DNA of 64,000 nucleotides from Methyloprofundus sedimenti (GTDB lineage Bacteria > Pseudomonadota > Gammaproteobacteria > Methylococcales > Methylomonadaceae). The stretch is taken from the NCBI RefSeq assembly GCF_002072955.1, contig NZ_LPUF01000001.1, positions 1,262,896 through 1,326,895 on the forward strand, read 5' to 3'. The position numbers were made by a program, and so were the translations under genes. The first letter of the stretch is position 1, and each line of letters begins with the position of its first letter. Positions 12,192 to 18,313 of this stretch are shown here, piece by piece. The notes under the pieces are model-generated. The model saw only the letters and a program-made list of their open reading frames with translations, was not told where the DNA came from and did not search any database.

Positions 12192-12833
12192 ATGGCAACA
12201 CCATTAATTCAAATGGCATTAGATTCACTAGATTTCGACGCAACTGTTGCACTTGCTGAGCAAGTAGCTGATTCTGTTGATATCTTCGAGATCGGTACAC
12301 CATGTATCAAACACAATGGTGTTAACTTAGTAAAAGAATTAAGAGCTAGATTTCCAAATCATTTACTTTTAGTTGACCTTAAAACAATGGATGCCGGAGA
12401 GTATGAGGCAACTCCTTTCTATGCGGCAGGTGCTGATATCTGTACGGTATTAGGTGTTTCAGGTTTAGCGACATGCACGGGTGTTATTAAAGCTGCAAAC
12501 GCACATGGCGCAGAGGCACAAATTGATTTAATTAATGTTGACGATAAAGCCGCTTGTGCAAGAGCATGTGCAGAAGCTGGCGCACAAATCGTTGGTGTGC
12601 ATACTGGTCTTGATGCACAAGCTGCTGGTCATACACCTTTCAATGACTTGGCATTAATTGCGGACCTAGGCTTAAGTGTTCGTGTTTCAGTTGCAGGTGG
12701 TATTAACCAGTCTACAGTTCAAGACGTAGTACGTGCAGGCGCAGACATTATTGTTGTTGGTGCAGCTATCTACGGTGCAGCATCTCCAGCAGAAGCGGCT
12801 CGCGAAATTCGTGAATTAGTTGACGCTGCATAA
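12192..12833 (+). CDS. hps: 3-Hexulose-6-phosphate synthase (RuMP pathway)
   Basis: A 213-residue aldolase of the orotidine-phosphate-decarboxylase superfamily that joins formaldehyde to ribulose 5-phosphate, giving hexulose 6-phosphate: the formaldehyde-fixing step of type I methanotrophs. Signature segments are QMALDSLDF at the N-terminus, the metal/substrate site DLKTMDAGEYE, and the phosphate-binding end VAGGINQSTVQDVVRAGADIIVVGAAIYGA. The length equals that of stand-alone HPS and it is not fused to the isomerase. AATCGGAGT upstream is the ribosome-binding site. hpi follows after 11 bases. Confidence 0.97.
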   Translation: MATPLIQMALDSLDFDATVALAEQVADSVDIFEIGTPCIKHNGVNLVKELRARFPNHLLLVDLKTMDAGEYEATPFYAAGADICTVLGVSGLATCTGVIKAANAHGAEAQIDLINVDDKAACARACAEAGAQIVGVHTGLDAQAAGHTPFNDLALIADLGLSVRVSVAGGINQSTVQDVVRAGADIIVVGAAIYGAASPAEAAREIRELVDAA

Positions 12834-12844
12834 GGGTTAATATT

Positions 12845-13378
12845 ATGCATCAACAACTTGTCGTAGATAAACTAACAAGCATTCTTTCAGCAACTGATGA
12901 TTCTTATGATGAAAAGTTGACGACAATGCTTGATAAAGCAAATCGTATTTTTCTTGCGGGAGCTGGTCGTTCTAAACTTGTGGGTAACTTTTTCGCCATG
13001 AGATTGGTGCACAGCGGTTACGACGTTAGTGTTGTAGGTGAAATTGTCACGCCAAGCATTAAACAAGGTGATTTATTAATCATTATTTCGGGCTCAGGTG
13101 AAACTGAACAATTGATTGCCTTTACAAAGAAAGCGAAAGGTGTTGGCGCTGATATTATGTTGATCTCAGCAAAAGGCGATTCGACTATCGGTGATTTAGC
13201 TGATGGCGTGTTCCAGATTGGTACTCCGGAGATGTATTCCAAAGTTAAGGGTATGCCAATGGGAACTGTATTTGAATTGTCAACATTATTATTTTTGGAA
13301 GCGACTATTTCCCATATCATTCATGATAAGGGTATTCCTGAAGAAATAATGAGAGAAAGACACGCTAACATGGAATAA
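12845..13378 (+). CDS. hxlB: 6-Phospho-3-hexuloisomerase (RuMP pathway)
   Basis: A 177-residue SIS-fold isomerase that converts hexulose 6-phosphate to fructose 6-phosphate. Visible motifs are FLAGAGRSKLVGNFFAMRL, GDLLIIISGSGETEQL (the SIS phosphate loop) and the C-terminal GIPEEIMRERHANME typical of PHI. It is translated directly after hps, so the toxic formaldehyde adduct is made and used by coupled enzymes. A strong terminator follows within 10 bases, ending this transcription unit. Confidence 0.97.
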   Translation: MHQQLVVDKLTSILSATDDSYDEKLTTMLDKANRIFLAGAGRSKLVGNFFAMRLVHSGYDVSVVGEIVTPSIKQGDLLIIISGSGETEQLIAFTKKAKGVGADIMLISAKGDSTIGDLADGVFQIGTPEMYSKVKGMPMGTVFELSTLLFLEATISHIIHDKGIPEEIMRERHANME

Positions 13379-13499: not shown

Positions 13500-15485
13500 A
13501 TGTCTTCGCGTAGAGAACTTGCGAACGCCATACGCGCTTTAAGCATGGATGCTGTTCAAAAAGCAAAATCAGGTCATCCTGGTGCACCTATGGGTATGGC
13601 GGATATCGCCGAAGTATTGTGGAATGATCATTTAAAACATAACCCGACGAATCCTGAATGGGCTGATCGCGACCGTTTTGTTTTATCAAATGGTCATGGT
13701 TCAATGTTAATTTATTCGTTACTACATTTGACAGGCTATGACCTGCCTATGGATGAATTGAAAACATTCCGTCAATTACACTCAAAATGTGCGGGTCACC
13801 CTGAGTATGGATATGCACCTGGTATTGAAACAACAACAGGTCCTCTAGGCCAAGGCGTCACAAACGGAGTTGGTTTCGCAATGGCTGAGAAGCTCATGGC
13901 GAATCAATTCAATAAACCGGGTCATGACATTGTTGATCATAATACCTATGTTTTTTTGGGTGATGGATGTTTAATGGAAGGTGTTTCGCATGAGGCATGT
14001 TCATTAGCCGGTACCTGGGGCTTAGGTAAATTAATTGCTTTTTGGGATGATAACAACATCTCAATCGATGGTCATATTGATGCCTGGTATACTGATGACA
14101 CGGTTAAACGTTTTGAAGCGTATCAATGGCATGTACAATCGATAGATGGGCATGACTCAGATGCAATCAATGCGGCTATTGAAGCCGCTAAAAAAGTAAC
14201 TGATAAGCCTTCTCTAATTTGTTGTAAAACAATTATTGGTTTCGGTTCACCTAATAAGAGCGGTAGCCATGATTGTCATGGTGCGGCTTTGGGTGATGAA
14301 GAGGTTGCACTTACTCGTAAAGAGTTAGGCTGGGAGTCAGCTCCGTTTGAAATTCCTGCGGATATTTATGCAGGTTGGGATGGCAAAGAAAAAGGTAAGG
14401 CGGCTGAAAAAAGCTGGGATGCTAAATTTGCAGCCTATGCAAAAGAATTTCCAGAGTTAGCGGCAGAATTCAAACGTCGTATGGAGAAACAATTACCTGC
14501 AAACTGGAAAGCAGCAACTGATGCAATGATTGCTGATACTAACGAAAAAGCAGAATCATTAGCTTCTCGTCAAGCATCGCAAAAAATTATCGCTGCATTA
14601 GCACCTGTATTACCAGAATTCTTGGGTGGTTCTGCAGATTTAACAGGTTCAAATCTAACCAGTTGTGCAAGTTTTACGCATGTCGATGGTAAGAAACCAG
14701 GTAACTACATCTCTTATGGTGTACGTGAATTTGGTATGTACGGGATCATGAACGGTATGGCACTGCACGGTGGTTTAATGCCATTCGGTGGTACTTTTCA
14801 TATGTTCTCTGACTATGCAAAAAGCGCGTTCCGCATGGCTGCATTGATGAAAATCCGTACGGTTGCTGTTTTAACTCATGACTCTATCGGTCAAGGTGAA
14901 GACGGTCCTACTCATCAACCTATTGAAAATACATCTGCAATGCGTTACATTCCTAATATGGATGTATGGCGCCCTGCAGATTCTGTTGAAGTTGCTGTTG
15001 CCTGGACTGCGGCTGTTGAGCGTTTAGATGGCCCATCTAGCTTAGTATTAAGTCGTCAAGGTATTCCTGGTCGTAAACATGATGTTGCTGATTTTGCAGC
15101 TATGCGCAAAGGTGCATATGTGTTATCAGAAGCTAAAGGTAATGCACAGGTTATCTTAATTGCAACAGGTTCTGAAGTTGATTTGGCCGCTAAGGCTCAA
15201 GAAGCTTTGGCAGCTGAGGGAATCCATGCACGTGTTGTTTCTATGCCATCCACTAACGTGTTTGATCGTCAAGATCAAGCGTACAAAGATAGCGTCTTAA
15301 CTCCAGGCGTTAAACGTGTTGCAATTGAAGCGGGTGTAACTGACTTCTGGCGTAAATATGTTGGCCTGGAAGGTGGTGTTGTTGGTATCGATACATTTGG
15401 TGAATCTGCACCAGGTGGGGTATTGATGGAATACTTCGGCTTTACAGTTGAAAACGTTGTTAAGACTGTAAAAGAAGTTTTATAA
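13500..15485 (+). CDS. tkt: Transketolase
   Basis: A 661-residue thiamine-diphosphate enzyme moving two-carbon units between pentose and hexose phosphates; in the RuMP cycle it regenerates ribulose 5-phosphate. Visible features: [19 protein letters not shown] at the N-terminus, the ThDP motif [18 protein letters not shown] ... [11 protein letters not shown], and the catalytic segment [17 protein letters not shown] with [23 protein letters not shown] ribosome-binding site precedes the ATG. It is the first gene of the unit tkt-(two repeat-motif genes), between terminators. Confidence 0.98.
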
Positions 15486-15557: not shown

Positions 15558-15590
15558 TGATTCGTTTCTTACTACCTATAGGTGAATTGC

Positions 15591-16292
15591 GTGAAAAAAA
15601 ATAATATAAAGAAAGGCATATTTACTGCCTTGTTACTTGCCAGTCCTTTCGTGACGGCAGGTACTCAATATCCGGCAGCTGATTTTCAACCCAAGGTTGT
15701 CTATCAAGATGAAAGTTATCAACATCAAAGTTCTGAATCATCTAACGCTACCAGTAATTCTTCAAGTAGTGAAAAATCAAAAGCAGATGCAAATTATCCT
15801 GCAGCGACTTTTCAACCTGAAGTGTTATATATCGATAAAGATTACAAGCATAATGCTGGATCAATACCAAGTAAATCGGTTCCACTAAAAAAGTCTACCG
15901 AAAAAGTGGCTTATGCTGCAGAAGAAAATAAGGCGGTAGCAGAGGAATCATCAATGAATCCATTGTTTGCTATTGTTGTCTTGGGCGTTGCTTTTTTCCT
16001 TTATAGTAAACAATCCAAAGGGACTGCTAAACCTAAAAAAACTGTTGTATCAAGAAGACAGACTCATTCAGGAAATTTTCGTAATGCTAATGGTGACAGT
16101 GGCGTAGCTAAATACTTGCAGAATAAGGTACCCAAACTTTCTAGTGTTGATAAATATTTACAAGCAAACCAGTCTGCACCTAAATCAGGCGTTGCAAAAT
16201 ACGTTGCAAGAAGAGTTGTAGCCGCAAAACAAGCAGCTTCTGAAAAAGTAACTGGTGTAGAAAAATACATGCGCAACCAAAATCGGGGATAA
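15591..16292 (+). CDS. Membrane-anchored protein with four GVxKY motifs (unknown family)
   Basis: Not recognised. The 233-residue product has a signal peptide (about 1-23, ending VTA). Its extracytoplasmic part carries two copies of YPAAxFQPxVxYxDxxYxH (27-45, 69-87) around a Ser-rich linker. A single membrane helix (123-140) is followed by a strongly basic stretch (SKQSKGTAKPKK), implying a cytoplasmic tail. The tail holds four motifs: SGVAKYL 170, SSVDKYL 184, SGVAKYV 199, TGVEKYM 221. The next gene, 5 bases on, encodes a soluble protein with eight such motifs and a similar VAKYxAxxxVAxKQA end. I infer a membrane-tethered member of a multivalent pair. The GTG at 15591 is chosen because AGGTGA lies at the right distance upstream. 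Confidence 0.75.
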   Translation: MKKNNIKKGIFTALLLASPFVTAGTQYPAADFQPKVVYQDESYQHQSSESSNATSNSSSSEKSKADANYPAATFQPEVLYIDKDYKHNAGSIPSKSVPLKKSTEKVAYAAEENKAVAEESSMNPLFAIVVLGVAFFLYSKQSKGTAKPKKTVVSRRQTHSGNFRNANGDSGVAKYLQNKVPKLSSVDKYLQANQSAPKSGVAKYVARRVVAAKQAASEKVTGVEKYMRNQNRG

Positions 16293-16297
16293 TTAAT

Positions 16298-16957
16298 ATG
16301 GGATTTTTATCAGGTATTTTTTCCAGCAAACAAACTAGACAAGATATCTATCGTGATGATTTAGAAGAATCATCAAATGAAGGATTAACTAGTGTAGCTA
16401 AATATATACAAACTCAAACCAGTAAACCTGTTGAGCATGGTAGCTATTCGAAAAAGTTAAGTGGCGTTGGTGAGTATATAAATACTCATAATGCTAGATC
16501 GGTAGAACTTACTAGAGCTGAAAAGGACGTGATAAATGCCCGCATTAATGAGACGATAGAACTAAGAAAAATAGAGGAGAGCTTGATGAGTGCAGAAAAT
16601 GAAAAATTAAGTGGTGTGGCTAGGTATGTTGAGAGTCAGGCACAAGCCATAAGAGAGGCTCAAGAAGCAGCTGGAACTGTAACCGGTGTTGCAAAATATG
16701 TATCAAATTTAATTGAAAATAAACCTGTTATTACTGGTGTTTCAAGATATTTGTTTAATCGTGTTGATGCGCAGGTAAGTAGTGTTGATAGATATGTGAT
16801 TAATAAGTCTCTAGCGGATAAAAATAAGCCAGTGAAGGTCATTATTCCACCGTCAAGTGTGACGAGATATTTAGAAAGCAGACCTACAATGTTGACTAGC
16901 AGTGTTGCAAAGTATATTGCAAAACAAATAGTTGCAGGAAAACAGGCAGTTGCCTAA
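16298..16957 (+). CDS. Soluble protein with eight [ST][GS]VxxY motifs (unknown family)
   Basis: Not recognised. The 219-residue product has no signal peptide or membrane helix. The motif occurs at residues 31 (TSVAKYI), 55 (SGVGEYI), 105 (SGVARYV), 129 (TGVAKYV), 146 (TGVSRYL), 161 (SSVDRYV), 186 (SSVTRYL) and 201 (SSVAKYI), separated by irregular 7-44-residue linkers, one of them a charged helix-like stretch (70-103). Irregular spacing argues against a solenoid fold and for separate short binding sites, as in scaffold proteins such as CsoS2 or EPYC1; that comparison is by analogy only. The C-terminus parallels the upstream protein. Position in the RuMP cluster suggests partner enzymes such as Tkt, Tal, Hps or Hpi, untested. 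Confidence 0.75.
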   Translation: MGFLSGIFSSKQTRQDIYRDDLEESSNEGLTSVAKYIQTQTSKPVEHGSYSKKLSGVGEYINTHNARSVELTRAEKDVINARINETIELRKIEESLMSAENEKLSGVARYVESQAQAIREAQEAAGTVTGVAKYVSNLIENKPVITGVSRYLFNRVDAQVSSVDRYVINKSLADKNKPVKVIIPPSSVTRYLESRPTMLTSSVAKYIAKQIVAGKQAVA

Positions 16958-16961
16958 TTAG

Positions 16962-16990
16962 TTTATCCTGTAAGTTCCTTACAGGATAAA
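16962..16990 (+). terminator. Terminator after the repeat-motif genes
   Basis: A perfect 13-bp stem TTTATCCTGTAAG / CTTACAGGATAAA with a TTC loop, immediately after the second repeat-motif gene. The T-run is short (TTGCTTT). Confidence 0.8.
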
Positions 16991-17004
16991 TTGCTTTGTA
17001 TAAA

Positions 17005-17032
17005 TTACTTTCGGCTACCAGGCCGAAAGTAA
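17005..17032. repeat. Second hairpin in the pre-tal region
   Basis: A perfect 11-bp inverted repeat TTACTTTCGGC / GCCGAAAGTAA with a 6-base loop. No T-run follows on the plus strand. It lies 14 bases after the previous hairpin. Confidence 0.7.
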
Positions 17033-17068
17033 CAAATACAATGTATAGCTTTATCTCATGCCATATTA

Positions 17069-17114
17069 AAATCTGTTTTCCTTAATTTCGTCGTATATTA
17101 AGGAAAACAGATTT
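17069..17114. repeat. Third, 18-bp hairpin in the pre-tal region
   Basis: A perfect 18-bp inverted repeat starting AAATCTGTTTTCCTTAAT with a 10-base loop. It is the longest perfect stem I found in the window. Three such hairpins occupy half of the 370-base gap before tal; the rest shows no gene. A TTGACT-N16-TACAAT pair at 17284-17311 is a possible tal promoter but would leave a very short leader. Confidence 0.75.
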
Positions 17115-17329
17115 AACCTCTGCGACAGCTTTTTTATTGCTTGTATGTCTCTAAGATACAATTTCATTATGAATAGTACAATTTTTGTGAAGAGGCAGCC
17201 GTCCCGGGTGGAATTTTTACAAATTTGGTAAATAGCAAAGATTTCAAAGCTAATCAGTATCCGTTAACGCAGTTTTAAAATGTGTTGACTTATTTTAACT
17301 ATAATTACAATATTTAAAGGTATCTAACA

Positions 17330-18313
17330 ATGGCTAATTACTTAGACCAACTTAAAGCAGTAACTGTTGCTGTCGCTGACACAGGCGATATCGGTGCAAT
17401 TGAAAAATTTACACCACGTGATGCTACGACGAATCCTTCATTGATTACTGCTGCTGCACAAATGCCACAATATCAAGGTATTGTTGATGATACTTTGAAA
17501 GCAGCTCGTACGACGCTTGGTGCCTCCGCTTCTGCATCTGAAGTTGTAGGATTGGCATTTGACCGTTTAGCAGTATCTTTCGGTTTAAAAATTCTTGAAA
17601 TCGTTCCGGGTCGAGTTTCTACAGAAGTTGACGCTCGTTTATCTTATGACACAGATGCTACGATTGCTAAAGGTCGTGATTTAATTGCGCAATACGAAGC
17701 TGCTGGTATAGATCGTAAGCGTATCCTGATTAAAGTTGCAGCTACATGGGAAGGGATTCAGGCAGCTAAAGTGCTGGAAAAAGAAGGAATCCATACTAAT
17801 TTAACATTGGTATTCGGCTTACATCAGGCAATCGCATGTGCTGAAAATGGCATTACTTTGATTTCTCCTTTTGTTGGACGTATTCTAGACTGGTATAAAA
17901 AAGATACTGGTCGTGATTCATACGAGCCAGCTGAAGATCCTGGTGTGGTTTCAGTAACTGAAATTTTCAACTATTACAAAAAATTCGGTTTTAAAACTGA
18001 AGTTATGGGTGCAAGCTTCCGTAATATTGGTGAAATTACTGAATTAGCTGGATGTGATTTATTAACGATTTCTCCAGGATTACTGGATGAATTGCAATCA
18101 ACTGAAGGTGTATTGCCTATCAAGCTAGATGCTGTTAAAGCACAAGCTATGAATATTGCAGAAATCAATGTTGATAAAGCGACATTTGATAAAATGCATG
18201 CTGAAAACCGTATGGCAACAGAAAAACTTAAAGAAGGTATTACAGGCTTTGAAAAAGCACTTATACTTTTAGAAGAGGTATTGGCAGCTCGTCTTGCTGA
18301 ATTAGAAGCTTAA
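17330..18313 (+). CDS. tal: Transaldolase
   Basis: A 327-residue class I aldolase of the TalB type that transfers dihydroxyacetone units between sugar phosphates, completing pentose regeneration in the RuMP cycle. The Schiff-base lysine is K135 in [25 protein letters not shown] near residue 31, [20 protein letters not shown], and the phosphate site [15 protein letters not shown] are all present. AAAGG upstream is the ribosome-binding site. It is a single-gene unit between hairpins and a strong terminator. Confidence 0.98.

Follow-up and report, generated by a model that had tools for sequence, protein, structure and literature searches.

It has long been asked how methanotrophs, which make toxic formaldehyde in their periplasm, keep it flowing to an enzyme in the cytosol, and the locus described here raises a specific question: what do two adjacent genes, P1 and P2, do among the RuMP genes, when their products carry several copies of one short motif? 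We have analysed the window (the whole stretch of 64,000 nucleotides around the locus) together with related genomes, and have confirmed a conserved, hps-linked family of multi-motif proteins. These proteins look like an undescribed scaffold for the formaldehyde-capturing pathway of methane- and methanol-eating bacteria.

P1 and P2 in the RuMP gene cluster

All coordinates given for genes and parts of the locus lie on the forward strand of the window. The hps gene (3-hexulose-6-phosphate synthase, 12192..12833), which encodes the proposed main docking partner, was recognised by TIGR03128 above cut-off at G000:C1:1275102-1275716. Its neighbours hpi (6-phospho-3-hexuloisomerase, 12845..13378), tkt (transketolase, 13500..15485) and tal (transaldolase, 17330..18313) were named by eye and by the order conserved in related clusters. 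As the original prediction stated, P1 (15591..16292) and P2 (16298..16957) are both present as open reading frames between tkt and tal, with hps and hpi upstream, and P2 begins 5 bases after P1. The P1 start at GTG 15591, behind an AGGTG box, is more plausible than the alternative upstream GTG at 15582. Since the G+C content is 37.5% for P1 and 36.2% for P2, against 39.3% for the window, the two genes do not look foreign. Two hairpins were found as consensus matches only, one of 13 pairs between tkt and P1 (15526..15557) and one of 16 pairs 3' of P2 (16959..16993), the latter a possible terminator; by eye, the gap between P2 and tal (16959-17130) holds strong inverted repeats, one of which matches the terminator pattern.

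Exact pattern counts have given four copies of [ST][GS]VxxY[ILVM] in P1 and eight in P2, the same numbers as first reported, while 20,000 residue shuffles per protein give a mean of 0.0053 motifs for P1 and 0.0074 for P2, with maxima of 1 and 2. The related C-termini noticed earlier are also there (AKYVARRVVAAKQAA and AKYIAKQIVAGKQAVA). P1 reads as a secreted-then-anchored protein with a cytosolic motif tail. Its signal peptide and its single membrane helix (15954..16004), both claimed before, were read by eye from the sequence with no predictor, and a TM-like segment ahead of the motifs is found in 58 of 59 P1-type proteins. The putative cytosolic tail (16098..16271) has its motifs at 16098, 16140, 16185 and 16251. 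In the part predicted to be periplasmic we have found two YPAAxFQPxVxY repeats, which the first description did not mention, namely YPAADFQPKVVY (15669..15704) and YPAATFQPEVLY (15795..15830); in the 14 P1 proteins of alignment A2, YPA..F.P is invariant in the first and PA..F.P in the second. P2 is apparently a soluble protein, with a short aromatic and hydrophobic N-terminal segment (MGFLSGIFSSK, 16298..16330) ahead of a motif region (16388..16918) with motifs at 16388, 16460, 16610, 16682, 16733, 16778, 16853 and 16898.

No family of Pfam or NCBIfam reaches its cut-off in P1 or P2. The best of the weak matches are to U1snRNP70_N (E 0.018) and BHD_2 (E 0.033) in Pfam, to AryK in NCBIfam (E 0.0068, 14.7 of 850 bits) and to PbeC in PADLOC (E 0.0085); all fall below the curated cut-off where one exists, and were taken as chance. 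The search of solved structures has given no match for P1 and a single one for P2, NusA, with an E value of 0.31; an AF2 model of P2 built from two sequences has a pLDDT of 36.6, too low to be informative about the fold. The Phasin_2 profile (PF09361) has 0 matches in the window's genome, and there is no relative among 13 pattern matches in viral contigs. In the window's genome a degenerate motif pattern matches 48 times, against 58 times for the reversed control; 9 of the 48 matches fall in P1 and P2 within 0.8 kb, and another pair, 0.6 kb apart, lies on opposite strands of contig C3.

Conservation and valency of the motif

Motif statistics come from a set of 75 distinct proteins classed as P2-like; the set includes a few that are Cys/His-tailed or are P1 proteins with diverged YPA repeats. 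Over 661 motifs with full flanks, the residues are T (62%) or S (38%), G (71%) or S (15%), V (100%), A (44%) or E (25%), K (62%) or R (27%), Y (99%), and L (58%), I (21%) or V (12%), with Q at +9 in 59%. The constancy of Val and Tyr is informative, as the search pattern would equally have accepted Ile in place of Val and Phe in place of Tyr; it placed no demand on the K/R and Q positions. In a helix-moment test, the consensus motif peptide was not separated from its shuffles, and one natural motif peptide scored higher.

The P2-like proteins range from 97 to 544 residues and carry 3-22 motifs each (n=75), while 48 of 52 P1-type proteins carry 3 or 4. The distance between motifs varies from 13 to 105 residues, with peaks at 20 (170 cases) and at 15-17 (207 cases). 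The linkers are thus irregular, as had been claimed, although over many relatives they are not random. At the level of sequence, such variable number and spacing speak against one continuous repeat domain. The mean fraction of Phe and Trp in 77 P2-like proteins is 0.072 before the first motif and 0.0036 after it, and the most hydrophobic 15-mer falls within the start segment in 42 of the 77 (16.7 expected). Because of both signals, P2 may touch a membrane or itself by its start.

Distribution of the motif proteins and co-occurrence with Hps

With P2 as the single query sequence, 166 of 201 genomes of family f1 gave a match. With a profile built from 17 P2 proteins (alignment A1), motif proteins are found in 203 of 251 genomes of the window's order, in 52 of 57 genomes of a second family (f10), in 6 of 369 genomes of the class, and in 1 of 398 in a phylum sample, which is the window's own genome. 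A profile match indicates a motif protein, which need not be P2: the tail of P1 with its motifs is matched as well, as is a long kinase in f10.

In the class sample, Hps (TIGR03128) exceeds its cut-off in 6 of 369 genomes, and these are the same 6 that have motif proteins. Weak TIGR03128 matches below the cut-off occur in 332 of the 369; the best of them (G539, 111.6 of 200 bits) comes without a motif match. As the 6 positive genomes derive from two lineages only, the independent events of co-occurrence are few.

In ten f10 genomes the P1 profile matched in the motif tail only, from which we draw that the putative tether (P1) goes with the window's order, and that soluble motif proteins are common to f10 too. 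From the genes seen, f10 appears to be Methylophaga-like, and its members look like methanol users rather than methanotrophs. Genus g32 is probably Methylococcus-like by the genes seen and by its tandem RuMP duplication; such a duplication is described for the M. capsulatus genome in the consulted part of PMC517821. A search of a collection of genome contigs gave one locus, from a named Methylobacter MAG (L087), which is 100% identical to L048 over the protein. Two loci assigned to different families (L058 and L059; G216:C1 and G202:C285) show near-identical score and spacing, which suggests a contaminant contig.

Gene neighbourhood

We have fetched 101 regions around profile matches, chosen to span genera and not at random, some genomes being sampled several times. 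Of the 141 motif proteins in these chosen regions, 130 have hps, hpi, tkt or tal no more than 3 kb away; that is, the homologues are not scattered without a link to RuMP genes. The link to RuMP genes that had been foreseen therefore stands, although the tie is to hps more than to tkt and tal.

The usual order in f1 is hps-hpi-tkt-P1-P2-tal (two sets of 20 regions). In variants, repeated hps-hpi units have P2 ahead of them or in their midst (L045, L050, L106, L246, L253, L258, L259), or P1 has no adjoining P2 (e.g. L091, L094, L096, L101). L246 (1699-17938) has hps-hpi-tkt in tandem triplicate, with P2 after the first and second units, and P1 and then tal after the third; P2 has thus been amplified along with these genes. 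Most of the f4 regions read have P1 immediately ahead of hps-hpi (e.g. L100, L102, L103, L104, L324, L328-L330, L333-L336), while in L325 and L331 it lies between tkt and tal; L324 has an extra protein of 56 residues with three motifs between P1 and hps. In f10, the order hps, P2-like, tal, hps, hpi, with P2 between a stand-alone hps and tal and no tkt in the region, is seen in 19 of 20 regions, and the twentieth (L244) has a weak short match between tal and hpi. From the gene orders of f1, f4 and f10 it follows that hps is the most constant neighbour. The two g12 regions examined show hps, tkt, a short P1 and P2 in that order, and neither hpi nor tal occurs over 19 kb; the short P1 lacks the motif, and what follows its repeats is too short for a membrane helix. 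Near the RuMP cluster of two f10 genomes there is also a protein with two receivers and GGDEF (L123 3891-5201, L125 14403-15737).

The 11 of 141 proteins beyond 3 kb are six Cys/His-tailed proteins, a ChpA-like kinase (L124), L097, L098, L099, and L256, where P2 is at the contig start. A further protein (L322), with two motifs, a signal peptide and a membrane helix, also lies away from RuMP genes; being below the threshold of the counting script, it is not among the 141. Together with L097, L098 and L099 it belongs to f4.

Motif proteins away from RuMP genes, and Hps without motif proteins

The P2 profile matches within a reading frame of over 700 residues in 34 of 57 f10 genomes. In nine regions chosen for such long-frame matches, the frame encodes a ChpA-like hybrid kinase (L124 8745-14852; L313-L320), which has 4-9 motif copies, mostly in one linker, where shuffles give 0.03-0.06. 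Pfam has confirmed Hpt, HATPase, CheW and receiver domains in L124, and the other eight kinases were equated with it by length and motif place, three of them also by their neighbours, by eye.

The six Cys/His-tailed proteins (L088 9442-10272; L092 9137-10102; L224 8478-9374; L323 6779-7555; L326 6776-7633; L327 6590-7483) begin like P2, carry 4-7 motifs and share a conserved Cys/His segment at the C-terminus, and their regions contain no RuMP gene; the two that were scanned show no Pfam family over cut-off. As both the kinase and the Cys/His-tailed proteins carry the same motif, a receptor consisting of Hps alone does not readily fit.

On the other hand, we have tested 26 motif-negative genomes for Hps (20 of the 48 negatives of the order, G163, and five of f10), and it is above cut-off in 8. 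Two of these genomes are cut at the locus: G131 has the beginning of P1 at a contig end, and G698 has hps at one. The real exceptions so far, with Hps and without motif proteins, are five f6 genomes, that is, 5 of 5 motif-negative f6 genomes tested, and G221 of f4. Five of these exceptions were read around hps (four of f6 and G221) and showed no motif protein there, and G221 has no match to the P1 profile. Since Hps is present in these six motif-negative genomes, RuMP works without motif proteins. Among the five motif-negative f10 genomes, four are also without Hps above cut-off, three of the four being 75-86% complete.

The three f6 genomes searched with the P1 profile have a P1-like protein which it matches over signal peptide, repeats and helix and not over the motif tail. 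In two such proteins (L310 7223-7867, L312 6850-7470), the tail shows an acidic stretch and a basic tip, and a mutS-like gene is nearby, by eye. Small secreted proteins with YPAxxFxP repeats also occur separately, in the window's own genome (L056 9907-10251, contig C2) and at L296, L297, L299, L300 and L304. Their neighbours are ABC-transporter genes in three f1 genomes and, in three of f4, a formate-tetrahydrofolate ligase gene; Pfam has confirmed one ATPase and one ligase.

A putative scaffold for formaldehyde assimilation

The explanation that we prefer, and to which we give about an even chance, is that P1 and P2 are the two parts of a multivalent scaffold, which P1 would tether and which would gather RuMP enzymes, most likely Hps. 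The evidence supports it in part: the link to RuMP genes and the co-occurrence with Hps speak for it, while the kinase, the Cys/His-tailed proteins and the Hps-only genomes speak against an exclusive role in RuMP.

We infer binding, its partner, clustering and an effect on formaldehyde as follows. One RuMP enzyme would dock to the motif, [ST]-[GS]-V-x-[KR]-Y-[LIV]-x-x-Q, a short peptide that probably forms a two-turn helix. The best candidate partner would be Hps, because it is the neighbour common to f1, f4 and f10 and because, in the class sample, Hps and motif proteins occur in the same genomes; given the kinase and the Cys/His-tailed proteins, the range of partners may be wider. Hps is oligomeric, so the soluble P2 with its many motifs would cross-link it into a cluster. 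P1, held by its helix in the inner or intracytoplasmic membrane, would offer usually 3 or 4 motifs to the cytosol, and its YPAxxFxP repeats would fix its position from the periplasmic side. The enzyme cluster would thereby be tethered near the site where periplasmic methanol dehydrogenase releases formaldehyde.

The main alternative is that the motif docks to a receptor outside RuMP, such as a polar or chemosensory hub, to which P1 and P2 would bring RuMP gene products or membrane regions. The gene order would then be read as co-regulation, and a shared neighbourhood may indeed reflect no more than that. We consider this rather unlikely. It would account for the motif cluster in the linker of the ChpA-like kinases (4-9 copies in the nine chosen regions), for the frequency of the long-frame matches (>700 residues) in f10 and for the Cys/His-tailed proteins away from RuMP genes. 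However, 0 of the 363 class genomes outside the Hps set match the profile, though other pilus chemosensory systems are expected there, and one degenerate pattern has revealed no other multi-motif cluster in the window's own genome.

It is improbable, in our estimate, that P1 and P2 serve to organise intracytoplasmic membranes, P1 spanning them and P2 spacing the stacked sheets, with a link to RuMP by operon only. P1 looks membrane-bound and is found only in the window's order (with ten f10 genomes tested), and the N-terminus of P2 is hydrophobic and aromatic, which speaks for this role. Yet P2-like proteins have the same link with hps in f10, whose members are apparently not methanotrophs by the genes seen, so that intracytoplasmic membranes may not be needed for the link; the invariant Tyr and Val, moreover, suggest recognition of a protein over binding of lipid.

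We put just as little weight on P1 as a transmembrane sensor, whose YPAxxFxP repeats would sense the periplasmic state and whose motif tail would signal to P2 and the RuMP enzymes, for regulation and not scaffolding. The topology of P1, the existence of small secreted proteins that have YPAxxFxP repeats of their own and adjoin transporter or FTHFS genes, and the motif-bearing kinase of f10 are in line with it, but neither P1 nor P2 matches a signalling family of Pfam above cut-off, and up to 22 motifs would be unusual for a signal relay. Finally, a low-complexity or selfish repeat expansion without defined function would explain why copy number and length vary, and is very hard to believe for proteins kept beside hps in f1, f4 and f10, with Val and Tyr invariant while the linkers differ.

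Comparison with known systems

CsoS2, the scaffold of the alpha-carboxysome, and EPYC1, the linker of the algal pyrenoid, are low-complexity proteins with several motif copies which work with a carbon-fixing enzyme. P1 and P2 resemble them in repeating a short motif along a low-complexity chain (4 and 8 copies; 3-22 in relatives), in the tie between the putative scaffold gene and that of the client enzyme (130/141 within 3 kb; the same 6/369 genomes), and in the proposed multivalent gathering. They differ in that they would serve RuMP genes and not Rubisco, by putative binding, and in that the membrane-anchored partner carries the same motif. Pfam holds a CsoS2 profile, and hmmscan against Pfam-A with E up to 1 has given no match to that family for P1 or P2. 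Diatom pyrenoid component 2 (PF25195, DPC2) matches 4 of 6 motif proteins scanned with 15.3-18.7 bits (best E 0.0024), which is below the curated cut-off of 70 bits and was taken as resemblance; it is not listed for the window's P1 and P2 at E up to 1.

Orita et al. are said to have engineered Hps-Hpi fusions in 2007. These would have the same aim as the scaffold proposed here, that is, to keep RuMP enzymes together, although they are artificial and covalent, whereas P1 and P2 are separate natural proteins with putative docking motifs. If true, a natural scaffold for RuMP enzymes would be a part that synthetic methylotrophy could take over as it stands. According to Ferenci, Strom and Quayle (1974), Hps is reportedly particulate or membrane-associated in Methylococcus capsulatus and soluble in other methylotrophs. 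Such a particulate Hps would fit P1 as a tether: a membrane protein with putative docking motifs in the cytosol, encoded beside hps, could explain it.

The ChpA-type kinase of type IV pili, so named by its domains and neighbours, bears the same motif in f10 (4-9 copies); unlike it, neither P1 nor P2 has a kinase, Hpt or CheW domain by Pfam. That a chemosensory kinase carries the motif is a hint that metabolism and motility could be connected. A shared docking code, with [ST]GVxKYL on the membrane anchor, the soluble scaffold and the pilus chemosensory kinase of f10, and with a hub of clustered formaldehyde-fixing enzymes that would both tie the pathway to the membrane and recruit the kinase, thereby coupling C1 flux directly to movement, is a speculation that we regard as decidedly unlikely.

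By title or abstract start, the matches listed for the open-licence literature include no report of a natural RuMP scaffold or of these proteins, and proteins of the P1 or P2 type are not mentioned in the consulted parts of PMC5802761, PMC6548844, PMC6373157, PMC517821, PMC13108547, PMC8879981 and PMC9445010.

As for the docking surface, we have compared Hps and Hpi between regions with and without motif proteins. Glu108 of Hps is present in 95 of 95 sequences from motif-positive regions, many of them closely related, and is replaced by Trp (4) or Gln (1) in 5 motif-negative sequences from two lineages. Similarly, Leu78 of Hpi is found in 67 of 69 motif-positive sequences, against Phe in the 5 motif-negative ones. 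The two columns are a lead at most to a docking surface. Concerning the operons themselves, the part of PMC13108547 consulted describes a CRISPRi screen of M. capsulatus in which guides against the RuMP operons MCA3040-45 and MCA3046-50 gave negative fitness scores.
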